Part shown: piece after piece, positions 9,716 to 29,336 of the stretch
Numbering within the stretch: the first letter of the stretch is position 1
Layout: each line of letters begins with the position of its first letter
IMG/VR virus record: IMGVR_UViG_3300009432_000033
Location: 1-29,517 of that record
Direction: 5' to 3' (one strand)
From: a virus
DNA length: 29,517 bases
Made by a program: the position numbers and the translations under genes
Notes under the pieces: model-generated
Told to the model about the DNA's origin: nothing
What the model saw: the letters and a program-made list of their open reading frames with translations, nothing else
Database searches by the model: none

Positions 9716-10128
9716 TGAGAAAAAAAACACATAAAGACCTGACAGCTTTAGAGATTGGTGAGGAGATTAAAAAAGAACTAGGCATAGATATATACCAAAA
9801 CACAAGACAAGCGACTTACGTAGAGGCTAGAGCGTTAATGTGCTACCTTTTAAGAGAGAAGTTAAACTTGCGCTGGACATCTATCGCTAAACTCTTTCAA
9901 GGTGAAGGAAAACATATGGATCATTCAAACGCTTTGCACCTAGTAAAAATGTACCCTATATATAGAAGGGATGACAAAAGACTTTTAGAGCTTGAGAAGA
10001 CATTTAAATTTACTCGTAAGACTGGTTTAGACTTTGACTATACCAACTACCTAGAAGATAAATATGAATCACTAGAGGAGAAGTATTATAAGCTAGAAAA
10101 AAAATATCTAGACATTATAGAAAAATAA
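9715..10128 (+). CDS. DnaA domain IV-like origin-binding protein
   Basis: A 137-aa protein whose central part (about 30-80) resembles the DnaA C-terminal DNA-binding domain: RQATYVEARALMCYLLRE (compare the R-x-x-A-x-x-A-x-Y-L-x-R-E helix of DnaA), then WTSIAKLFQGEGKHMDHSNALHLV, corresponding to the I-x-x-x-F-x-x-R-D-H-S-T-V signature loop and recognition helix. There is no ATPase domain. The C-terminal 25 residues form a coiled coil (LEEKYYKLEKKYLD). It may mark the phage origin and recruit the host replisome or the 6497 ATPase. The 375-nt low-coding region directly downstream is a possible target. Confidence 0.7.
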   Translation: MRKKTHKDLTALEIGEEIKKELGIDIYQNTRQATYVEARALMCYLLREKLNLRWTSIAKLFQGEGKHMDHSNALHLVKMYPIYRRDDKRLLELEKTFKFTRKTGLDFDYTNYLEDKYESLEEKYYKLEKKYLDIIEK

Positions 10129-10189
10129 TATGAGGGGGGCGCAGACAGTTTTTATGCTAGGAGTAGGTAAGGATTAAAATGTCCCCCAA

Positions 10190-10282
10190 ATGCATAGCGG
10201 GGTGGTTGTACTAATTATATTAGTCTTTGCTTGGGTAAGTATCCACCTTGCTTTAATCATAGAGGAGAGCGGTCTTTTATAA
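10190..10282 (+). CDS. Possible 30-aa single-TM micro-protein
   Basis: A 30-codon frame beginning ATGCATAGC. It encodes one hydrophobic segment (VVVLIILVFAWVSIHLALII) and a short acidic tail (EESGLL). It looks like a tiny membrane protein. No overlap with neighbours and no repeated leader supports the start, and the same bases form a hairpin, so translation is uncertain. Confidence 0.35.
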   Translation: MHSGVVVLIILVFAWVSIHLALIIEESGLL

Positions 10283-10324
10283 ATTATATAAAAAAACTTG
10301 TGGTTAGGTTCGGCTGACTCTCCT
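10201..10324. repeat. Inverted repeats / potential stem-loops
   Basis: GGTGG (10201-10205) pairs with CCACC (10243-10247), extended by GTAC/GTAT. Inside the loop lies the near-palindrome ACTAATTATATTAGT (10210-10224). A second pair, AGGAGAG (10263-10269) and CTCTCCT (10318-10324), closes a 48-nt loop that contains TATAAATTATATA. These could be a packaging-site structure, an origin or an RNA leader element. Confidence 0.5.
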
Positions 10325-10342
10325 TTATAACACCAAAGAAAA

Positions 10343-10444
10343 ATGATAGCATTAGCAATAGTAATATTTATGTCATCTTACATAATTAGAAGAGAGTACC
10401 TACTGTGGAAAGAGGTCAAAAAAAAAATTAATAGATACAAATGA
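10343..10444 (+). CDS. Possible 33-aa membrane micro-protein
   Basis: A 33-codon frame after an A-rich leader (CACCAAAGAAAA). It has an N-terminal hydrophobic segment (MIALAIVIFMSSYII) followed by a basic amphipathic helix (RREYLLWKEVKKKINRYK). The pattern, a short TM anchor plus positive tail, is that of small N-out/C-in membrane proteins of phages. No family is recognised. It ends 20 nt before the late promoter motif. Confidence 0.5.
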   Translation: MIALAIVIFMSSYIIRREYLLWKEVKKKINRYK

Positions 10445-12837: not shown

Positions 12838-12867
12838 AAGGTGGTCAGAAATGGCTGCCTTTTTTTA
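12838..12867 (+). terminator. Intrinsic terminator closing the early island
   Basis: AAGGTGGTC (12838-12846) pairs with GGCTGCCTT (12853-12861), with several G-T wobbles, around AGAAAT. A T run reaches 12866. It separates the small early genes from the late tail operon, which has its own promoter motif at 12903. Confidence 0.7.
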
Positions 12868-12915: not shown

Positions 12916-13569
12916 ATGAAAGCTGAAATCAATATACCAAACAGCCTTGCTGAGATTACACTAAAGCAGTATCAAAAGTTCTTGAAGATACAAGAGAATA
13001 ATGATGATGTGTATTTCCTGCAATGTAAGATGATAGAGATATTCTGTAATCTAGATGCTGTATCTGTAAGGCTTTTAAAAGTCTCAGATGCTAATAGGAT
13101 TATGGACATATTAAACGATATGTTAAATTCTCAGCCTGGCCTAATCAGGACATTTAAACTAGGTGGTATTGAGTACGGTCTTATACCTGACTTTGATGAT
13201 ATGTCTTTAGGTGAGTACATTGACCTTGATACTTATATGGGTGACTGGGAAAATATGCAGATAGCAATGAACGTACTATACAGACCTATCAAAGAAAGAC
13301 TAGGTGAGAAGTACATCATTAAAGATTACGATGTAAACACAAAGGAAAAATTGAATGAGATACCTGTTGATGTGGTCTTAGGTGCAGTTTTTTTTTTATA
13401 CAATTTAGGGATAGACTTATCGAAAACTATGCTGGACTATTTGGAGGAGCATCAGAAGGACAGCTCGATGCACAGTCATCTTTTTCAAAAAAATGGGGAT
13501 GGTATCAAAGCCTATTCTCAGGACTCGCTCAAGGAGATATTACAAGAGTTGAAGATATCACTAAACTAA
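12916..13569 (+). CDS. Tail assembly chaperone, short form (gpG-like)
   Basis: A 217-aa protein with the opening pattern NSLAEITLKQYQKFLKIQ and the middle motif DDMSLGEYIDLDTYMGDWEN-x-x-IAMNVLYRPI, which I associate with tail assembly chaperone-like proteins of Bacteroidetes siphophages. It would bind the tape measure and tail tube subunits during tail assembly. Codons 158-161 run over a T10 tract (13388-13397), and a second A7 tract lies at 13487-13493. The zero frame continues to a plausible helical C-terminus (DSLKEILQELKISL), while the -1 frame is also open to 13655 (see the extension entry). It is the first gene of the tail operon, with a late motif 3 nt upstream. Confidence 0.65.
   Translation: MKAEINIPNSLAEITLKQYQKFLKIQENNDDVYFLQCKMIEIFCNLDAVSVRLLKVSDANRIMDILNDMLNSQPGLIRTFKLGGIEYGLIPDFDDMSLGEYIDLDTYMGDWENMQIAMNVLYRPIKERLGEKYIIKDYDVNTKEKLNEIPVDVVLGAVFFLYNLGIDLSKTMLDYLEEHQKDSSMHSHLFQKNGDGIKAYSQDSLKEILQELKISLN
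13388..13398 (+). promoter_or_regulatory. Candidate -1 frameshift (or transcriptional slippage) site
   Basis: Ten T followed by A. In the zero frame this reads GTT TTT TTT TTA, so 13392-13398 is the heptamer T-TTT-TTA, a canonical -1 slippery sequence. A run of ten T could also cause polymerase slippage. A second possible heptamer, A-AAA-AAT, lies at 13488-13494. Both lead into the same open -1 frame. Confidence 0.65.
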
Positions 13570-13655
13570 ACGTGCATAGCTGTTTGTACAGCTTAGAGTA
13601 TATGAAAGACAAGGCAGAGCTAGAAGCAAAACAAATCAAAAAGAATTTTAAATAA
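13395..13655 (+). CDS. -1 frame C-terminal extension of the tail chaperone (gpGT-like)
   Basis: The -1 frame is closed by a TGA just upstream of the T10 tract (at about 13371), then open for 86 codons to the TAA at 13653-13655. It has no ATG, GTG or TTG before its conserved-looking core, so it needs a frameshift to be made. The translation includes SSFSKKWGWYQSLFS, then GDITRVEDITKLNVHSCLYSL and a charged helix KDKAELEAKQIKKNF. The KKWGWY...GDI...T-K-L pattern is familiar from tail proteins of Bacteroidetes phages. Slippage at 13392-13398 would give a fusion of about 246 aa. Its stop overlaps the next start (TAATG), as expected for a genuinely translated frame. Confidence 0.7.
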   Translation, partial: FIQFRDRLIENYAGLFGGASEGQLDAQSSFSKKWGWYQSLFSGLAQGDITRVEDITKLNVHSCLYSLEYMKDKAELEAKQIKKNFK

Positions 13656-17937: not shown

Positions 17938-18077
17938 TACAGAATATAATTGAGCTGCTAAGTGTAGTTGAGGGAGAAACAGAAGCAATACAGATTGCAA
18001 AGGGTAAGTATAAATTGGCACAGACCTTTTCTGAGGGGTTTAAGCAAACAAAAGAGCAGAAGAGATGGAAAAAATAG
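17934..18077 (+). CDS. Small helical protein overlapping the tape measure gene
   Basis: A 47-aa protein starting within the previous stop (ATGA, 17934-17937) and overlapping the tape measure gene by 13 nt. It has a helix IIELLSVVEGETEAIQIAKGKY, broken by a basic tail with FSEGFKQTKEQKRW. No cysteines or TM. The overlap chain supports translation. No assigned function; position suggests a tail assembly accessory. Confidence 0.6.
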   Translation: MIQNIIELLSVVEGETEAIQIAKGKYKLAQTFSEGFKQTKEQKRWKK

Positions 18078-19990
18078 AAGTAGAATTTGAGTTAAAATAT
18101 AAGGATGCTATTGGTGAAATCGAAGAGCTTAAAAAAGAGCTTAAAAAGGTTCAGGAATCCGTTGTAGACGGTAATAAAGCTACTGAAAAGTCATTAGAAT
18201 CTGTTGAAAAAAGTGCTGAAGGTAGCGCAAAGGGTGTAAAGAAAGTAGGTGTTTCTATTAAGAATCTAGCAAAAGCTAGTGGTATAATATTCTTACTTCA
18301 GAAAGCGTTTGAGTTTGTTTCTTCTGCTATACAGGAAAATCAAACAGTAATGACTGCGCTTAATACCGTCTTTGAAACTGCTCAGATTATATTTAATCAG
18401 GTTGTAACAGTTTTTACAGACGTATATAAATCTGTCAGTTCATCCACAGAGAATTTTGATGCATTAGGAAAAGTTATCAAAGGCCTTGTTACAATCGGAT
18501 TAACTCCTATGAAACTCAGTTTTTTTGCTATAAAATTAGCCTTACAATCTGCACAGTTAGCTTGGGAAAAATCATTTTTTGGTGGTAAAGACCCCGAAAC
18601 AATTAAAGCTCTACAAGAAGGTATAGACGAAACAAAAAACAGTATTGCTGAAGTAGCTATTGAAGCCGTAGATGCAGGGAAAAGTATTGGTGAAAACTTT
18701 GCTGAAGCTGTTTCAGAGGTAGGGGCAATTAGTGAGCAAGTAGTTGATGGTTTAAAAAAAGTTAGTGTTTCATCTGCCATAGAAACTGCTAAAGCTAATA
18801 TGGCATTAAAGAAAAATGCTGAAATAGCTGAAGCTCAAAGTAAAATATTAATAGAGCAGTATGACAGGGAAGCTGAAGCATTAAGGCAGGTTCGTGATGA
18901 CACTAGACTTAGTATAGATGAAAGGATAGCTGCAAATGATGAATTAAAATTAGTATTAGAAGACCAAGAAAAGCAAATGACTGCTAATGCAAATGCTGTA
19001 CTGGCAGCCGCACAAGCTCAGTTTGATTTGACAGGTAAAAATGAGGACTATGTAGCTGTTTTAAATGCTGAAGCTGAAGTAGCGGGTGTACTTGCAACGG
19101 CAACAGGTTTTTTATCTGAGCAAAGAGTTAACGATGCAGGTCTGCAACAAGAACTGATAGACTTAGATAATGCTAAAATGGAAAGTGCATCACTACTTTC
19201 AATAGAGCAAAAACGATTTAACGCAGAACAGATTGTTAACTCTTTAGAAAAGCTAGAAGCATTACAAGAGATTGACGAACTAGAAGCCGAACAAGAGACT
19301 TTAAGACTTCAATCCATAATAGATAATATAAACACAGGCACACAAGCTAAGATTGACGCTCAGATAGCTTTAGACCAATTCTCTGAAGCATCTAGACAGA
19401 CTAATATCACAAGAGATAAAGAAATAGCAGACGAACTGATAGCAATAGAAGAAGAAAAGACTGCGGCTAAAAGAAAAGCTCTAGATGATTTAATATCAAT
19501 ATCAGGAGCTGAAACTAAACTAGGAAAAGCATTATTGATAGTAAAGCAAGGTTTAGCTCTTAAAGAAATGATAATGGAAGCAAAGAAAACCATTACGTTT
19601 GCTTCAGTAGCAGCCGCAAAAAGTAGTGTTGCAATTGCAGAGGGTACAGCTCAAACGGCAAAGGTTGGATTTCCACAAAACATTCCTTTACTTATTGGAT
19701 ATTTTGCACAAGCAGCAGGTATTATTAGCTCTATACGTTCAGCAACTAGATTGGCTAAATCTACTGCCTCTTCTTTTGGTGGTGGTGGTGGAAGTGTTGC
19801 TGCTGTTTCCGCACCTTCTGTACCAAGAATCCCTGAGTTTAATACAGTAGGAGCGAGTGGTACTAATCAACTAGCTGATGCGATAGGAAGCCAAAGTAAG
19901 CAACCTATAAAAACCTATGTTGTAGCAAGTGATGTGACCACAGCGCAAAGCCTAGAGAGAAACATTATTACAGGTGCAACAGTAGGATAA
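18065..19990 (+). CDS. Tape measure protein
   Basis: A 641-aa, highly helical, Ala/Glu/Lys-rich protein. It has an N-terminal coiled coil (IEELKKELKKVQESV), several hydrophobic stretches around 73-165 (e.g. LVTIGLTPMKLSFFAIKLAL), and long coiled coils at 240-480. A hydrophobic hairpin follows near 535-560 (PQNIPLLIGYFAQAAGIISSI), then a Gly-run linker (SFGGGGGS). The C-terminus contains KTYVVASDVTTAQSLERN, which I recall as a typical ending of flavophage tape measures. It sets tail length; at about 0.15 nm per residue the tail would be roughly 95 nm, an estimate only. It ends the tail operon; a late promoter motif follows. Confidence 0.85.
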   Translation: MEKIEVEFELKYKDAIGEIEELKKELKKVQESVVDGNKATEKSLESVEKSAEGSAKGVKKVGVSIKNLAKASGIIFLLQKAFEFVSSAIQENQTVMTALNTVFETAQIIFNQVVTVFTDVYKSVSSSTENFDALGKVIKGLVTIGLTPMKLSFFAIKLALQSAQLAWEKSFFGGKDPETIKALQEGIDETKNSIAEVAIEAVDAGKSIGENFAEAVSEVGAISEQVVDGLKKVSVSSAIETAKANMALKKNAEIAEAQSKILIEQYDREAEALRQVRDDTRLSIDERIAANDELKLVLEDQEKQMTANANAVLAAAQAQFDLTGKNEDYVAVLNAEAEVAGVLATATGFLSEQRVNDAGLQQELIDLDNAKMESASLLSIEQKRFNAEQIVNSLEKLEALQEIDELEAEQETLRLQSIIDNINTGTQAKIDAQIALDQFSEASRQTNITRDKEIADELIAIEEEKTAAKRKALDDLISISGAETKLGKALLIVKQGLALKEMIMEAKKTITFASVAAAKSSVAIAEGTAQTAKVGFPQNIPLLIGYFAQAAGIISSIRSATRLAKSTASSFGGGGGSVAAVSAPSVPRIPEFNTVGASGTNQLADAIGSQSKQPIKTYVVASDVTTAQSLERNIITGATVG

Positions 19991-20026: not shown

Positions 20027-20899
20027 ATGAAAATAGTAGAATTAATACTAGACGAAGAGCAGGAAGGCGGCATTGAAGCTATTTCAATTGTTGAAAGTCC
20101 AGCCATAGAATCTGATTTTGTAGCTTTAGAATCACAAGAGGTTAAACTTGCTGAAGTAGACAAAGAGAAAAAAATACTATTAGGGGCTTTATTGATTCCT
20201 AACAAACCTATTTACAGAAACGGTGCAGAGGGTGACTATTATATTTTCTTTTCAAAAGAAACGATAGTTAAGGCCTCACAGATGTATCTAAAAAATGGCT
20301 ATCAAAACAAATCAACACTAGAACACGCTAAAGCATTAAACGGATTAACATTAGTTGAAAGCTGGATTGTAGAAAGTGAGACTCAAGATAAGTCTAGAAA
20401 GTACGGTCTTGATGTTCCTGTGGGAACTTGGATGGGTGCTGTAAAGGTAGACAATGATAAAGTTTGGGATGAGTACGTTAAAACAAACAAAGTAAAGGGG
20501 TTCTCAATTGAGGGCTACTTTGCAGATAAAATGGAAAAGCCTAAAAAAGAAGTTAAAGAAGATATGTCAAAAAGTATAGAGGTAGAAGCTGCTGAACTAT
20601 TAAGCAAGATTGAGAAAATTGTCAAAGGTGAAAAACTAGAATTATCTGTTATTGATGATATTAAAGATTTAGCCCAAAGAGGAATGAAAATTGAAACAGA
20701 TTTGAAATCTGCTTTAAGTTCATATAATGGATTACTCAGAGCAGGAAATGGAATTAATAAAGAAATTAATAAATTAACTGCTGCTGCAAAAGATTTAGGT
20801 GTTCCAGTACCAAAAGAAATTAAAGGATTTACTGAAATGGCTAATAGGTTTATATCTAATGGTGAAGCACTAGGTAAAGTGATAAATAAATTTTCATAA
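20027..20899 (+). CDS. Prohead serine protease, XkdF-like, with helical C-terminal extension
   Basis: A 290-aa protein. Residues about 45-168 match the XkdF-type phage protease: LLGALLIPNKPIYR strand, helix SKETIVKASQMYLKNG, STLEH100, VESW, the VPVGTWMGAVKV stretch, and KGFS160IEGYF. H100 and S160 are the likely catalytic pair. It would mature the capsid by cleaving scaffold and capsid N-termini. After a Lys/Glu linker there is an extra helical region (180-290) ending in LGVPVPKEIKGFTEMANRF, which resembles the C-terminal part of the 21286 protein. So the extension may be a fused scaffold-like module. The late promoter motif lies 5 nt before its start. Confidence 0.75.
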   Translation: MKIVELILDEEQEGGIEAISIVESPAIESDFVALESQEVKLAEVDKEKKILLGALLIPNKPIYRNGAEGDYYIFFSKETIVKASQMYLKNGYQNKSTLEHAKALNGLTLVESWIVESETQDKSRKYGLDVPVGTWMGAVKVDNDKVWDEYVKTNKVKGFSIEGYFADKMEKPKKEVKEDMSKSIEVEAAELLSKIEKIVKGEKLELSVIDDIKDLAQRGMKIETDLKSALSSYNGLLRAGNGINKEINKLTAAAKDLGVPVPKEIKGFTEMANRFISNGEALGKVINKFS

Positions 20900-20914: not shown

Positions 20915-21274
20915 ATGAATACAACAAAGAATTTAGACAAGATTTTCAGTAAGCTACCTGTGCAGTTAAACTCGGTATCAGTAAAGCTGTCTATAATGGA
21001 TGACATCGAGGAGTTTTTAAGTCAAGGTTTTGGTCTAGAAGAATTTGCTCAAGAGGCTATTGATGAGGCGCAGATATTAACTACTAAAGCTCGTGATATA
21101 ATTAGATTTGATATGGGTGAGGCTATTGGAAGTGCTGATGATACAATAATGGAAGCAGAAGCTAAACTAAAAGAGTTAGGAGCAGATAGCCCACAATTAG
21201 ACGAATTTAAAAAGCAACTTGCAGATTTAGAAGGTATACAAAAAGACCTTTTACGTGAATCAGATAACATCTAA
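20915..21274 (+). CDS. Helical protein, paralogue of 21286 (head assembly region)
   Basis: A 119-aa acidic helical protein. Its N-terminus (KNLDKIFSKLP, then LNSVSVKLSIMDDIEEF) lines up with that of the 21286 protein (KEISKIYDRLP, LNAIRVELGIADDI). The rest is coiled coil with LKELGADSPQLDEFKKQL near the end. I recall small proteins with the KIFSKL...KVEL...DDI pattern in flavobacterial phages beside capsid genes. No function is known to me. A scaffold or decoration role is position-based inference. Confidence 0.6.
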   Translation: MNTTKNLDKIFSKLPVQLNSVSVKLSIMDDIEEFLSQGFGLEEFAQEAIDEAQILTTKARDIIRFDMGEAIGSADDTIMEAEAKLKELGADSPQLDEFKKQLADLEGIQKDLLRESDNI

Positions 21275-21285
21275 AAAATAAATAA

Positions 21286-21711
21286 ATGAAGACCCCAAAA
21301 GAAATAAGCAAAATTTACGACAGACTACCAAAACAAAAGGTAGAACTAAACGCAATAAGAGTTGAGTTAGGAATTGCTGATGATATTAAGAAATCAATAG
21401 CAGTTAACAAAGCAGCGTTAGATGAAGTAAAGAAATTAGAAGCAATAGCTGAAGCAGCTAAAAAAACGTATTTAAAAGCTGAAGCTGACGCTATAAAAGT
21501 CAGAACAGACACAGCTAAAAAAGCAGATAAATACAATAAGCTAGAGGATAAGACAGGCCAACTTTTATCTAAAGCTGAAGCAGCAGCTAAAGGATTAGGT
21601 GTTAAACCTCAAGCTATTGATGGATTTACTGAATTAGAAGATATAACTATTGAGTTAGGTATGCAGACCAACAATCTTAACAATTTTGATTTTGATTTAG
21701 GTGGGGCGTAG
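21286..21711 (+). CDS. Helical protein, paralogue of 20915 (head assembly region)
   Basis: A 141-aa protein with the same N-terminal pattern as 20915, followed by a long Ala/Lys/Glu helix (VKKLEAIAEAAKKTYLKAEA). It then has AAKGLGVKPQAIDGFTELED, which parallels the C-terminal segment of the protease (LGVPVPKEIKGFTEM). Three neighbouring genes thus share a LGV-x-P-x-x-I-x-GFTE unit, or a relative of it. It ends in an Asn/Asp-rich tail. Its last 11 bases overlap a small GTG-start gene in the next frame. Role unknown; probably head assembly. Confidence 0.6.
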   Translation: MKTPKEISKIYDRLPKQKVELNAIRVELGIADDIKKSIAVNKAALDEVKKLEAIAEAAKKTYLKAEADAIKVRTDTAKKADKYNKLEDKTGQLLSKAEAAAKGLGVKPQAIDGFTELEDITIELGMQTNNLNNFDFDLGGA

Positions 21712-21901: not shown

Positions 21902-22501
21902 ATGAAATCAACTGAAATGCTAAGTCAAATCAAATCACTTCTAAACATAGAGGTAAGACTTGAGGAGATGAAACTAGAAAATGGCACTATTGTAAGTGCT
22001 GAATCATTTGAAAAAGGTAAAGAAATCTTTATTGTAACAGATGACGAAAAAGTAGCTATGCCTGTGGGCGAATACTTACTTGAAGACGGAAGATTAGTAG
22101 TAGTATCTGAAGAAGGTCTTATTGCTGATGTAAGAGAAGTATCTGATGAAGTTCCTGCTAAAGAAACTGAAGAGGGTGAAGAAATTACTTCTGACCTTGA
22201 AGAAGAAGAAGCTCCTAAAGAGGAAATGGCTTATGTAACAAAAGAAGAGTTCTCTTCTGCTGTTGAGGAAATGAAGTCTATGATTGACGAAGTAAAAGCT
22301 ATGATGTCTCCTAAAGAAGAAATGGGTGATGAGTCTAAAACTTTAAAGTCAAGAACTGTAAAAGAAGAATTTTCTGAAGCTGCTTCAAAACCTATCAAAC
22401 ACAATCCTGAAGGAAAAAGCACAACTAAGAAAAAAGTAGAATTTGCAAAGGGTAATTTCTCAACACCTCTAGACAGAGTATTAAGTAAACTAAATAAATA
22501 A
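21902..22501 (+). CDS. Scaffold-like capsid assembly protein
   Basis: A 199-aa protein. The N-terminal helix (KSTEMLSQIKSLLNIEVRLEE) leads into a small beta domain (FIVTDDEKVAMPVGEYLLEDG, LVVVSEEGLIADV). A very acidic stretch follows (ETEEGEEITSDLEEEEAP), then a coiled coil (FSSAVEEMKSMIDEVKAMM) and a basic C-terminus (KKKVEFAKGNF). Directly before the major capsid gene, with an acidic coiled-coil middle and basic tail, this is the usual build of a phage scaffold that binds capsid subunits. It is probably processed by the 20027 protease. Assignment is from composition and position, plus recollection of similar flavophage proteins. Confidence 0.65.
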   Translation: MKSTEMLSQIKSLLNIEVRLEEMKLENGTIVSAESFEKGKEIFIVTDDEKVAMPVGEYLLEDGRLVVVSEEGLIADVREVSDEVPAKETEEGEEITSDLEEEEAPKEEMAYVTKEEFSSAVEEMKSMIDEVKAMMSPKEEMGDESKTLKSRTVKEEFSEAASKPIKHNPEGKSTTKKKVEFAKGNFSTPLDRVLSKLNK

Positions 22502-23570: not shown

Positions 23571-24140
23571 ATGGCTTGTGCATTAACATCGGGGCGGAGT
23601 GTCCCTTGTAAGTCCGCCTTTGGTGGCATTAAAGAAGTAAGGTTTGCAAACTTTGGAACTATTGGAAGTGTTACAATTACAGCAGGAACACAAGAGGCTA
23701 CTATTGTAGATGCTTCACCTGCTCCTGTATGGTTTGCTTACCCAGTAAAAGGTAGCTCTAGTCTAGAAACTACTGTAACGTCATCTAGAGAAAACGGTAC
23801 TACTTTTTACACTCAGACATTGAATCTTACATTACCATTTTTAGATGCTTTGACTAACGCTGAACTTTACCAAATGGCTATCTCAAGACCTTATGCGGTT
23901 GTAGTTGATTATTATGGTAATGAGTTTCTTTGTGGTTTAAACAACGGAATGGAAATGACAGGTGGAACTATTGTTACAGGCGCAGCAGCAGGTGACTTGA
24001 GTGGTTTTACTTTAACTATGGAAGGAATGGAGCAAAACGCTCCTTGGTTCTTAGTAGCTGGACAAGCAGCAGAAACTGATGCTACTGATAGAATAAACCC
24101 TACTCCTGATGGAACTCCTCCACAGCCAGTATCCACTTAA
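23571..24140 (+). CDS. Probable major tail tube protein
   Basis: A 189-aa beta-rich protein with N-terminal CALTSGRSVPCKSAFGGIKEV and FANFGTIG, the motif KGSSSLETTVTSSRENGTTF, and late strands VVVDYYGNEFLCG and GGTIVTGAAAGDLSGFTLTM. I associate this pattern (GR-x-x-PCK...GGIK; SSLETT-x-TSSRENGT) with abundant structural proteins of Bacteroidetes siphophages, likely the tail tube. Its position beside the capsid gene and between two terminators fits a high-copy structural protein. Capsid decoration is the alternative. The C-terminus is Pro/Thr-rich and probably flexible. Confidence 0.6.
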   Translation: MACALTSGRSVPCKSAFGGIKEVRFANFGTIGSVTITAGTQEATIVDASPAPVWFAYPVKGSSSLETTVTSSRENGTTFYTQTLNLTLPFLDALTNAELYQMAISRPYAVVVDYYGNEFLCGLNNGMEMTGGTIVTGAAAGDLSGFTLTMEGMEQNAPWFLVAGQAAETDATDRINPTPDGTPPQPVST

Positions 24141-24241: not shown

Positions 24242-24619
24242 ATGATAATATTAACCACTTCAGCAGCCGCTCAAACCTTGTCTGTAATACCTAGAAAGTA
24301 TGACAGTATTCCGTTCAAAATGTCTATCAGAGATGATAGTACAAACATTACAGTAATATATACTATTGCTACGGCTACAACGGTGGGAAATTACTTTCAG
24401 TTTACTCAAGCATTTTCTCCTGTATTAGTTGAGAATCATTTTTATGATATACATTTATACACAGAAACAGTTTCAGGTTATAAAGAAGATATTTTCAAGG
24501 ATAGAATATTTTGCACAGACCAGGATGTTAATCAGTTAAATGAAAGCTCTCACTATGAACTTAATGAGGGGCAATACACCCATTATGATGGGTTTAATAA
24601 TACCTATACAGTACGATGA
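24242..24619 (+). CDS. Conserved-looking structural protein upstream of portal
   Basis: A 125-aa beta-rich protein (IILTTSAAAQTLSVIPRKYD; FKMSIRDDSTN; NHFYDIHLYTE; IFKDRIFCTDQ). The S-A-x-QT...IPR...RDDSTN...YDI...KDRIFCT pattern is one I recall from small proteins encoded next to portals or fibres in flavobacterial phages. The function is not established to my knowledge; minor tail or head decoration are both possible. It overlaps the portal start by 4 nt (ATGA), and the promoter motif L5 lies 5 nt before its ATG. Confidence 0.6.
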   Translation: MIILTTSAAAQTLSVIPRKYDSIPFKMSIRDDSTNITVIYTIATATTVGNYFQFTQAFSPVLVENHFYDIHLYTETVSGYKEDIFKDRIFCTDQDVNQLNESSHYELNEGQYTHYDGFNNTYTVR

Positions 24620-26805
24620 AAAACACACAATTGAGAAACGACAAAGGGCAGTTTAAAAAAGCATCAAAGGTATCTGAATTTGGCTTTGTTAATCTAAGCA
24701 CATATACTAGCCCTGAAATCAAAGAGGTAAAAGGAGAAGATTACATTGAGTACGGTGCAGACAATAACTATTTTCAGTACCTCATAGACCGTTACAACGG
24801 CTCTCCTACAAACAATGCCGCCATTAATGGTATAAGCGCACAAATATATGGTAAGGGCTTAAACGCTAGTGATTCAAACCGTAAGCCTAACGAGTACGCA
24901 CAGATGGTTTCCTTGTTTAAAAAGGATGTTGTAAGAAAATTGTGTTATGACCTCAAATTAATGGGACAATGTGCTGTTCAGGTTATATACTCAAAGGACA
25001 GAAAGACTATTGCTCAATTAGAGCATATGCCTATTGAAACATTAAGAGCTGCAAAATGTGATGATGACGGTGATATACCTGCTTACTACTATTTTAAGGA
25101 TTGGCCAAACATTACAAGAAGTGATAATCCATTAAGAATACCAGCTTATGGGATGTCTAATGAAGATGTTGAGATATATTATATTAAACCCTACAAGTCA
25201 GGATTCTATTATTACTCTCCTGTTGATTATCAGGGTGGTTTACAGTATGCTGAACTAGAAGAAGAGGTATCAAATTACCATTTAAACAATATACTGAATG
25301 GATTAGCTCCTAGTATGTTGATTAATTTTAACAACGGTACACCTAACCAAGAGGAACGAGCTTTAATAGAAAACAAGATTGCACAGAAGTTCTCAGGAAC
25401 GTCTAACGCAGGTAAGTTTATACTAGCCTTTAATGATAACAAAGAAAGCCAGGCAGAGATAAGCCCTGTACAGTTAAGTGATGCTCATAACCAGTATCAG
25501 TTTTTATCAGAAGAGGCAACGTCTAAAATACAGGTTGCTCATAGAATTGTATCACCGTTTTTATTAGGTATTAGAACCTCTTCAGGTTTCTCAAGTAATG
25601 CTGATGAAATAAAGACTGCATCCTTGTTAATGGACAACACCGTTATTAGACCGTTTCAGGAGCTTTTAATAGATTGCTTTGATAATCTACTAGCTTACAA
25701 CAATATCTCCTTAAACCTATACTTTACGACCTTACAGCCACTAGAGTTTACTGACGTAGATAAGGACATACAAGGAAGTGAAGACATAGAAGAAGAAACA
25801 GGTTACGAATTTAACAAAACAAGCCTTGCTAAATATCCTTGGGACAAATGTATAGAAGACCAAACTGCTAGGTATGGTGCAGAATCAGCACCTAAAATCT
25901 GTGGATATATAAAAGAAAATATGTCATCTGTTGATTTAAAAGAAATTGACGGAAAACAAGCCTTTGAAACTCGTGAAGAAGCTGAAGCAATAGCTAAACT
26001 AGCAGGTTGTGAAGGATACCACGAACACGAAGAAGACGGTAAAGTGTGGTATATGCCTTGCGAAGACCATAGTAAATTTGATTTATCTAATGAAATAGGA
26101 GCTGAATTAGCTGCTGAGTTATTAGAACTAGGTCAAGACGAGGAAGACCTTATGGACAATTACGAGTTAGTAGATGTTTCTGAAGTTGACTATGAAAACG
26201 AAGAAAAAAGTGACAAGATAATAAACGAACTAAACGCAGAAAAAGACTCAAGTCTATCTGTATTAAGTAAAATTGTAAATCTAGTCTCAACAGGTAGAGC
26301 ATATCCTAAAAATAAATCAGAACAAGACGGTGTTACAAAACAGAAAGGTCTTGCTAGATTCCTGGTTAGATATCAGTACGCACCTCTAAAAGCCAATGTA
26401 AACAACTCACGCAAGTTTTGTATTGCAATGGTAGGAGCTAAAAAGATATACCGTAAGGAAGACATAGAGAAGCTATCTAATAAACCTGTAAACGCAGGAT
26501 TTGGGGTAGGCGGTTCAGCAACATATTCTATTTGGTTAAATAAAGTAATTGATGAAAATCTACCTGAATCAGAATTAAACGCTTACAACCTTTACAAAGG
26601 GGGTGCAAGATGTCAGCACAAATGGTTTAGAAAAACTTATATGTTGACTTTGGACGGTGTTAAATCAGAGGTAACAACTACAAAAGCAAAATCAAAGGGT
26701 TTTAAATTTCCTGTGAATGAGCAATTAGTGCCTGTTGCGCCTACTGATATGAAATACAAAGGTTACACAAAAGCCTACTGGGACAAAATGGGATTCAAAT
26801 ATTAA
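24616..26805 (+). CDS. Portal protein with multi-module C-terminal fusion
   Basis: A 729-aa protein. Residues 1-380 fit a portal: YIEYGADNNYFQYLIDRYNGS, a clip/stem-like middle, and the late pattern FLSEEATSKIQVAHRIVSPFLLGI (296-319) followed by helix FQELLIDCFDNLL. The portal is the dodecameric DNA channel at one capsid vertex. After 390 there are extra modules: PWDKCIEDQ...ICGYIK (408-433) and a Cys/His cluster C465-H469-H471-C482-H485. A basic domain RFLVRYQYAP...SRKFC...KIYRKEDI (581-617) ends with WLNK...LYKGGARCQHKW near 640-670. Similar modules occur, from memory, fused to or next to head proteins in flavophages; their role is unknown. It is much longer than an ordinary portal (400-500 aa). 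Confidence 0.7.
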   Translation: MKNTQLRNDKGQFKKASKVSEFGFVNLSTYTSPEIKEVKGEDYIEYGADNNYFQYLIDRYNGSPTNNAAINGISAQIYGKGLNASDSNRKPNEYAQMVSLFKKDVVRKLCYDLKLMGQCAVQVIYSKDRKTIAQLEHMPIETLRAAKCDDDGDIPAYYYFKDWPNITRSDNPLRIPAYGMSNEDVEIYYIKPYKSGFYYYSPVDYQGGLQYAELEEEVSNYHLNNILNGLAPSMLINFNNGTPNQEERALIENKIAQKFSGTSNAGKFILAFNDNKESQAEISPVQLSDAHNQYQFLSEEATSKIQVAHRIVSPFLLGIRTSSGFSSNADEIKTASLLMDNTVIRPFQELLIDCFDNLLAYNNISLNLYFTTLQPLEFTDVDKDIQGSEDIEEETGYEFNKTSLAKYPWDKCIEDQTARYGAESAPKICGYIKENMSSVDLKEIDGKQAFETREEAEAIAKLAGCEGYHEHEEDGKVWYMPCEDHSKFDLSNEIGAELAAELLELGQDEEDLMDNYELVDVSEVDYENEEKSDKIINELNAEKDSSLSVLSKIVNLVSTGRAYPKNKSEQDGVTKQKGLARFLVRYQYAPLKANVNNSRKFCIAMVGAKKIYRKEDIEKLSNKPVNAGFGVGGSATYSIWLNKVIDENLPESELNAYNLYKGGARCQHKWFRKTYMLTLDGVKSEVTTTKAKSKGFKFPVNEQLVPVAPTDMKYKGYTKAYWDKMGFKY

Positions 26806-27413: not shown

Positions 27414-27609
27414 AATATACAGTTCCTCTTGGTGGGGAATTGGCCCTTGTAATGAAGTCGGTTGGGGTATTGTATATAAGCAATATGCAGATTGTCTAGT
27501 ACCTGTTATCATTGCAGACTTTACAGCTAGAGTAATTGCGGACGGTGGTACGGTGGAGTCACCTGCTTGTTTAGATGTTCCATTAACCTTCCTAACACAA
27601 AATCCTTAA
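27403..27609 (+). CDS. Small structural protein with RVxxDGGTVES motif
   Basis: A 68-aa protein: N-terminus NEIYSSSWWGIGP with a GWGIVYKQYAD segment, then ARVIADGGTVESPACLDVPLTF. The second segment matches residues 454-475 of the 746-aa tail protein (RVVEDGGTVESLSCLEASLTTL), suggesting a shared tail module. I recall similar short proteins in flavobacterial phage structural regions. The true function is unknown; a short fibre-associated or attachment protein is plausible from position before two fibres. The stop is 2 nt before the next start. Confidence 0.6.
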   Translation: MANEIYSSSWWGIGPCNEVGWGIVYKQYADCLVPVIIADFTARVIADGGTVESPACLDVPLTFLTQNP

Positions 27610-27611
27610 TT

Positions 27612-29336
27612 ATGAGCAGTTATTACGATGATGCCTCACTTATGCTTTTAGCAAGTGGTGGAGCGCAAAAAGATGGCAAGGTATATTCCGTTAAGCCTAC
27701 TGATGGATCAGGGGATTTCACCTTTACAAGAGGTTCTAATTTATCAGCTACGAGGGTAGATGCTTCGCAGTTAATAGAGAAGGGTAGAGAGAATGTCTTG
27801 CTGCAATCAAATCAGTTTGATACTACTTGGTTAAATCAATTAGGTGGCACAATTACTGGTGGTCAAGCAGGATATGATGGCTCAAGCGATGCTTGGTTAA
27901 TAAGCAAAGATGCATCTAATTTTAGAAGCGTTAGACAAGTTATATCTTTTAGTGGTGTGAGTACATTTAGCCTATACGCTAAATCTGGAACGCTTACAGA
28001 TGCAGCTTTAAGAATGGACACAAGTGCAGGTGCGATTCAAATTGTTTATGATTTGTCAGCAGGTGTGGTCGCATCAAGTGGAGGTGTTTTTATCAGCAAC
28101 GGAATAGAAGATGTAGGAGGTGGTTGGTATAGAATTTTTGTTACTGCCAATGTATCAAGCGGTACTAATGTTCATATCTATGCAGATAGAAGTGGTACAA
28201 CCGCAGGAAGCATCTACATCCAAGATGCTCAATTAGAATCTTCTCTCGTAGCTACGCCTTACATTGAAACAGGAGCATCTACTGCACAGGCAGGTATATT
28301 AGAGAACACCCCACGCTTTGACTATTCAGGTGGTGCTACTTGTCCTTCTCTTTTATTGGAGCCGAGTAGGAGTAATCAAATAACGCAGTCGGAATACTTT
28401 GGTGGTTGGACTGTTAATACTACAATTACTGCAAATGCAGCATTAAGTCCTGAAGGTGTTCAAAACGCATACAACATCGCATCAAATAGCGGTGTAGGGA
28501 ATGGAATTTTGGCAATTAGCGGTGCGCTTTCAAGCACTCAATATGTATGTAGTATTTATGTGAAAAGTGCAGGTGCTACAACAGGTAAATTAAGATTATT
28601 TGATGGGTCAACTGGAGCAAGTACAACAACAACTTTTACTCCAACAAGCGAATGGCAGAGAGTAGAAGTAACAAGAACAAGTGGAGCAGGTACTTTTCAG
28701 TTTCGTACTGATATTCATAGTAATGATGGGGACTTGCTAATTTACGGAGCGCAACTTGAAGCAGGAAGTTACTCAACATCCTACATACCCACATATGGGG
28801 TAAGTCAGACAAGGGCGTTTGATGATTGTGCCGTAAATTATACGAACATAAGCGACACAGGAGGAACTATTTTTTGGCAAGGTTTCGTAGATATTGGTGT
28901 GGATTCACACGCGATATCATTATCAAATTCCGCAAATGGTAATGGTTCAAATAGAATACTAATTTATAGAAGTACAAGCGATAATAAAGCGTGGTTGTAT
29001 ATTCAATCAGCAGGAGTTAGCGTTAAAAACATATCGTTACAATTACCGACTGATTCAAACGATAAGTATGCAGTTTCTTGGGCAACAAATGATTTTGCAG
29101 TATATATAAATGGAGCGCAAATCTACACATCTTCAAGTGGGGCAATTCCTACGGGTATGCAATACATTCAACTTAATGAGTGGACTAATGCCCACACAGA
29201 AACAAATGTAACTAAACAAGCATTGTATTTTACTACAAGACTTTCAAATTTAGACCTTGCGATATTAACAGGAGCAACAACTTACAACACATTTGCAGAA
29301 ATGGCGTTAGCCTTAAATTACACAGTATATGAATAA
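27612..29336 (+). CDS. Tail fibre with two jelly-roll-like modules and a LamG-like C-terminus (paralogue 1)
   Basis: A 574-aa protein; the start is ATG 27612 (MSSYYDDAS), two bases after the previous stop. An in-frame ATG at 27567 lies inside the previous gene and adds unconvincing residues. Domain order matches the fibre at 29329/1-1698: N-terminal FTRGSNLSATRVD anchor (37-50), module 1 (SNQFDTTW...GGGWYRIFVT...IYIQDAQLE, about 65-220) and module 2 (TQSEYFGGW...IYGAQLEAGSYSTSYIPTY, about 255-400). A LamG-like C-terminal domain follows, with the segment ALYFTTRLSNLDLAIL. It probably binds host surface glycans. The gene overlaps the second fibre start by 8 nt (29329-29336). Confidence 0.8.
   Translation: MSSYYDDASLMLLASGGAQKDGKVYSVKPTDGSGDFTFTRGSNLSATRVDASQLIEKGRENVLLQSNQFDTTWLNQLGGTITGGQAGYDGSSDAWLISKDASNFRSVRQVISFSGVSTFSLYAKSGTLTDAALRMDTSAGAIQIVYDLSAGVVASSGGVFISNGIEDVGGGWYRIFVTANVSSGTNVHIYADRSGTTAGSIYIQDAQLESSLVATPYIETGASTAQAGILENTPRFDYSGGATCPSLLLEPSRSNQITQSEYFGGWTVNTTITANAALSPEGVQNAYNIASNSGVGNGILAISGALSSTQYVCSIYVKSAGATTGKLRLFDGSTGASTTTTFTPTSEWQRVEVTRTSGAGTFQFRTDIHSNDGDLLIYGAQLEAGSYSTSYIPTYGVSQTRAFDDCAVNYTNISDTGGTIFWQGFVDIGVDSHAISLSNSANGNGSNRILIYRSTSDNKAWLYIQSAGVSVKNISLQLPTDSNDKYAVSWATNDFAVYINGAQIYTSSSGAIPTGMQYIQLNEWTNAHTETNVTKQALYFTTRLSNLDLAILTGATTYNTFAEMALALNYTVYE

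Follow-up and report, generated by a model that had tools for sequence, protein, structure and literature searches.

How might a phage express a reading frame that has no start codon of its own and that overlaps, in the -1 register, the end of the gene before it? The question is raised by a virus record of 29,517 bases (the window, by which we mean the whole stretch of DNA that was analysed), which is related to the cultured Nonlabens phages P12024L and P12024S. Its genes for terminase, portal and capsid match phage families, and a search of phage records for near DNA matches gave none. In this record an open reading frame that we call G runs through ten consecutive T residues, and the -1 frame is open from shortly before this run to a stop codon well beyond that of G. 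The features of the locus are:

12838..12861, plus strand: terminator-like (intrinsic) hairpin with a T tail, upstream of G (consensus match only)
12916..13569, plus strand: G, zero-frame ORF of 217 aa, putative tail assembly chaperone (short form)
13371..13655, plus strand: -1 frame open region, stop to stop, 94 aa, ending in TAA at 13653-13655
13388..13397, plus strand: T10 run (slip site), codons GTT TTT TTT TTA
13398..13655, plus strand: T, the coding part of the -1 frame beyond the run, 85 codons and the TAA
13398..13569, plus strand: dual-coding overlap of the G tail with the start of T, seen from substitution periodicity
13491..13505, plus strand: KWGWY core motif of T, in the -1 frame

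The first-pass annotation had placed the run and the TAA correctly, and its further statements, that the zero frame of G goes on for 56 codons beyond the run, that the -1 frame lacks a usable start before the core (there is no ATG, GTG or TTG ahead of KWGWY) and that a product joining G to T (GT) would be about 246 aa long, all proved accurate. The run contains two heptamers in the G frame, T_TTT_TTT (13389-13395) and T_TTT_TTA (13392-13398); the second of these had been pointed out earlier together with A_AAA_AAT at 13488-13494, which is indeed in the G frame as well. The window's remaining T9 runs and its A10 run are all intergenic. Given the hairpin and T tail upstream of it, G may begin a transcription unit.

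Conservation of the run and of the shifted frame

Among 391 loci with a G homologue, covering identities down to about 26% plus a lineage too distant for BLAST, the T run is present in all, as T9 in 213, T10 in 177 and T12 in one, and is never shorter. The loci were found by degenerate protein patterns, one set of which lay outside the run, so that these did not choose loci for having it; the FF residues in some later patterns could have biased the sample towards Phe-Phe, though towards neither TTT codons nor any run length. T is in the -1 frame relative to G in every homologue checked, and 80 close, 53 intermediate and more than 100 distant loci all retain the three elements, G frame, T run and -1 segment; a search for homologues carrying T in the same frame as G, or a shorter run, found none. 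Loci L355-L393 include a distant lineage found by T alone, its G having been missed by tblastn with the earlier queries: it again has a T9 run, reading GGG TTT TTT TTT GCA or, in L355, TGT CTT TTT TTT TGC, with T in the -1 frame.

Among cultured phages, relatives were found for G in the Nonlabens phages P12024L and P12024S only. Their genes 40/41 and 38/39 respectively, each pair annotated as two hypothetical genes, are direct homologues of G/T, with a T9 run and T in the -1 frame; the T core is KWGWY in P12024L and KWSWY in P12024S, and the G tail ends 24 codons after the run, as against 56 in the window. The arrangement is also present in isolate genomes of Galbibacter and Flagellimonas and in several assembled bacterial genomes. 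A family-wide search found G in just three of 397 bacterial genomes, so prophages of this kind seem to be rare. Within T, the segment that follows the run, residues F29, G34, W35 and L66 are invariant and K32 and Y36 nearly so, and conservation sets in at the very first codons beyond it (IQFRDRL... in the window, LSFR[DEN]RL...Y.ELF in others), which means that translation of T must pass through the run.

Substitution periodicity was analysed in two ungapped sets, of 31 and 32 non-redundant sequences. Before the run, 62% and 74% of substitutions (in the two sets) are at third positions of the G frame, and after the G stop 65% and 67% are at G-frame second positions, which are the third positions of the -1 frame. 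In the overlap, changes in both frames are held down, indicating purifying selection in both, and the constraint on the -1 frame is already visible in the first half. A periodicity that shifts in this way is what one would expect if the coding frame changes and the stretch between is dual-coding. Taken with the conserved run and -1 segment, it establishes that the G/T locus is a real programmed frameshift rather than an error or a separate gene, and the -1 fusion architecture is conserved. The central proposal of the first-pass annotation is thereby borne out, and by the comparison of homologues that it had itself recommended: both frames are conserved, and the run and the -1 segment are present in every homologue examined.

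Other ways of accounting for T have to be set against this. The idea of a homopolymer error in sequencing or assembly (or of a decayed gene) has in its favour that some platforms are error-prone at T10 runs, and the first-pass annotation had acknowledged that a true T9 or T11 would reduce the case to a simple frame error; but the identical frame relation recurs in hundreds of contigs, in cultured phages and in bacterial isolate genomes, and the purifying selection in both frames speaks equally against decay, so this explanation is refuted by conservation and has next to no chance of being correct. Two further routes to T, initiation at a start of its own as a separate gene and stop-restart coupling, are also very improbable. 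P12024L and P12024S do have an ATG (MEGFSLKWGWY) at the G stop, and T is annotated as a gene in its own right there (P12024L_41 and P12024S_39), but a -1-frame ATG between run and core is absent from 380 of the 389 scored loci, and 281 of the 389 have no ATG, GTG or TTG whatsoever; the -1 frame is conserved from its first post-run codons (FR[DEN]RL...Y.ELF) and constrained from the first half of the overlap, and in the window the G stop falls inside T, beyond its core. No homologue needs a separate start for T, so that the other result named by the first-pass annotation as a refutation, a -1 segment with its own start codon in homologues, did not arise either. As for A_AAA_AAT, put forward earlier as a second slip option, it is a canonical heptamer in the G frame, but it is mostly not conserved (15 of 115 representatives), and if slippage took place there instead of at the T run, the conserved -1 segment that starts at the run (FRDRL...LFGG) would go untranslated; we give this notion almost no credence.

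What slips on the run

The run occurs in six length/register combinations. In the 391 loci, T9 is in phase 0 or 1 and T10 in phase 0, 1 or 2, with T12 in addition, and L402 adds T9 in phase 2 (GGT TTT TTT TTG), again with T in the -1 frame. The registers include xTT TTT TTT TTV, xTT TTT TTT Txx, xxx TTT TTT TTT Txx, GGG TTT TTT TTT GCA and, in L353, AGT TTT TTT TTT CAT. On a tree of 115 sequences, based on the part of G upstream of the run, at least 17 register changes are required, never falling under nine T residues. L042 (GTG TTT TTT TTT TAC), L064 (with T12), L353 and L402 resemble intermediates in register shifts.

Codon choice around the run is also unusual. In the T10 phase-1 register, the preceding Val, Ile or Leu codon has T as its third base in 42 of 42 cases and the Leu after the run is never CTN (36/36), against a background of synonymous use of about 0.36 for GTT/ATT and about 0.38 for CTN; the associated probabilities (3e-19 for the lax heptamer, 3e-8 for the Leu codon choice) treat related sequences as independent and are indicative only. 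The preceding codon ends in T wherever the last codon is TTG, TTA or TTC, and is free (ATA, GTG, ATG, ATC and so on) where the run extends further 3', as if it were the total run length that is kept. The bases at the run end may be constrained by the -1 frame itself. The last run codon in T10 phase 1 (13396-13398 in the window) is TTG in 31 of 42 cases, although these genes use TTA about four times as often; the excess of TTG may stem from the -1 frame (Val) or from a preferred base where the run ends.

Elsewhere in these loci, long runs are depleted. In 569 other coding sequences (CDS), T8 was observed 5 times where synonymous shuffles gave an expectation of 27.9, and A9 or more 9 times as against 37 expected; T runs of at least nine were observed 0 times against 8.9 expected, in a set defined as CDS without such runs. 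Among 678 CDS, all T runs of at least nine are in G-like genes, one per locus in 109 of 110 non-redundant loci. The run of at least nine T residues is under selection.

Which machine, then, slips? For tailed phages, G/GT is a textbook example of recoding by the ribosome. A tandem tRNA slip on U_UUU_UUU (or U_UUU_UUA/G) might make GT in the present family too, the rest of the run being incidental or raising efficiency, and we hold this to be possible, if rather doubtful. Each register seen offers a workable in-frame heptamer (T_TTT_TTT or T_TTT_TTN), which is a counterpoint to any reading in terms of polymerase, and known tail-chaperone cases are ribosomal, as are all those described in PMC5009743 and PMC10885494. 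However, a bare heptamer needs just T7 (in phase 2) or T8 (in phase 1), neither of which occurs in the 391 loci, and T8 and longer runs are avoided in other genes. RNA structure downstream, scored for pseudoknot-free folds in 42 representatives, was not above control (mean z about +0.2), nor was structure upstream; inspection of the aligned 33 bases upstream of the run revealed no common SD-like element. A search of Rfam gave no match.

We think it likely, on balance, that this widespread flavobacterial phage family makes its tail-chaperone GT fusion by slippage of RNA polymerase on T9-T12. This reading, drawn from sequence patterns, is favoured because the run never falls below nine in spite of its register changes, long T runs are depleted elsewhere and no structure is seen downstream. 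The nine-T threshold agrees with published lengths, since programmed transcriptional realignment has been tied to Tn with n>8 (PMC3711429) and nine is the length at which counter-selection of A/T runs appears in many bacterial genomes (PMC1088944). The first-pass annotation gave ribosome and polymerase equal weight; either could slip here, but the evidence leans to the polymerase. Ordinary decoding would yield G (217 aa), while a host-type RNA polymerase would slip on the nine or more T residues, adding one U (or dropping two) in a fraction of transcripts, and normal translation of the slipped mRNAs would yield GT (about 246 aa), with the same N-terminal part as G and its last 85 residues from the -1 frame. 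Some GT may in addition come from ribosomes that slip by -1 on this U-run. That the polymerase is the slipping machine, and what ratio of products it sets, we infer.

Programmed transcriptional realignment at T9/A9 in Thermus dnaX, Shigella mxiE/spa13 and IS elements likewise involves homopolymers of at least nine residues, in which length rather than register is conserved and which are avoided in other genes; the present, probable case differs in concerning a phage morphogenesis gene. Flavobacterium phage 6H has a counterpart of a different kind: its gp10 is a structural match to G (Foldseek BFVD, E 1.4e-5) and is followed by a -1 frame ORF without a start codon, but the junction, unlike that of the window, has no T9 run, so another route to T may be used. 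The 6H genome (L394, NC_021867) has an unannotated 105-aa ORF at 10044-10361 on the minus strand, directly after gp10 and upstream of the annotated tape measure gene.

The probable role of G and GT in tail assembly

There is good reason to regard G and GT as tail assembly chaperones. We infer this role from the architecture (an ORF continued by an overlapping shifted-frame ORF without a start of its own, to give G plus a shifted C-terminal T), from size, and from position among tail genes upstream of a coiled-coil protein (18065-19990) that, judging by its coiled-coil sequence and weak structural matches, is probably the tape measure. Most likely G would act on the tape measure and T would recruit the tail tube protein, whose putative gene lies at 23571-24140, as with gpG/gpGT of lambda. 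In lambda, and in phages of the HK97 type, a small gene located upstream of the tape measure likewise gives a short protein and, by a shift near its 3' end, a -1 frame C-terminal extension. However, lambda gpG/gpGT shows no detectable sequence relation to G/T of the window, where the overlap is long (about 170 nt), the slip site is T9-T12 and not a mixed heptamer, and four genes (156, 177, 344 and 746 aa) separate T from the putative tape measure. The first-pass annotation had counted these four genes correctly, but was mistaken in taking all of them to be larger than G, which the products of 156 and 177 aa are not.

Its assignment of G as a tail chaperone is plausible from the architecture, but does not extend to membership of a described family. 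Curated chaperone families do not recognise G, which matches phrog_32199 (a PHROG of unassigned function); one of 42 G proteins matches Pfam Phage_TAC_7, at E 0.075. The AlphaFold model of G (pLDDT 82) has weak fold similarity to an annotated tail assembly chaperone (Foldseek E 0.019, prob 0.99, TM 0.37/0.41). There was no clear structural match to G in the PDB, and no solved structure related by sequence was found; Foldseek/VIA rows for G were set aside, as they match long C-terminal helices only. A structure search with T gave nothing useful, and Pfam gave no clear family for the tail genes tested.

Other genes of the window have features of their own. In the portal protein (24616-26805), residues 450-486 match DUF3721, and the C-terminal extension is long. 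Two separate proteins, encoded at 20027-20899 (which also matches head maturation protease) and 21902-22501, correspond to the two halves of phrog_24921, so that the protease-scaffold protein seems to be split; two small genes, at 20915-21274 and 21286-21711, sit between them. Large ORFs at opposite ends of the record (223-1698 and 27567-29336) have similar motifs (WYR, QDAQLE and SYIPTY) and are probably paralogous lectin-like or tail-fibre proteins.

Frameshifting in tail chaperones is already known, but none of the open-access papers searched was found to describe the variant with a conserved run of at least nine T residues and transcriptional realignment as its probable mechanism, or to report that transcription slips in a tail chaperone gene or that these phages use a frameshift. 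As a rule for annotation, it should be borne in mind that the T part has been missed, or mis-annotated as a separate gene, in the cultured relatives. If polymerase slippage is indeed responsible, hundreds of marine phages would set the same G/GT ratio at transcription, evolution having kept the ratio and not the machine, and structural genes of dsDNA phages would join the users of programmed transcriptional slippage.
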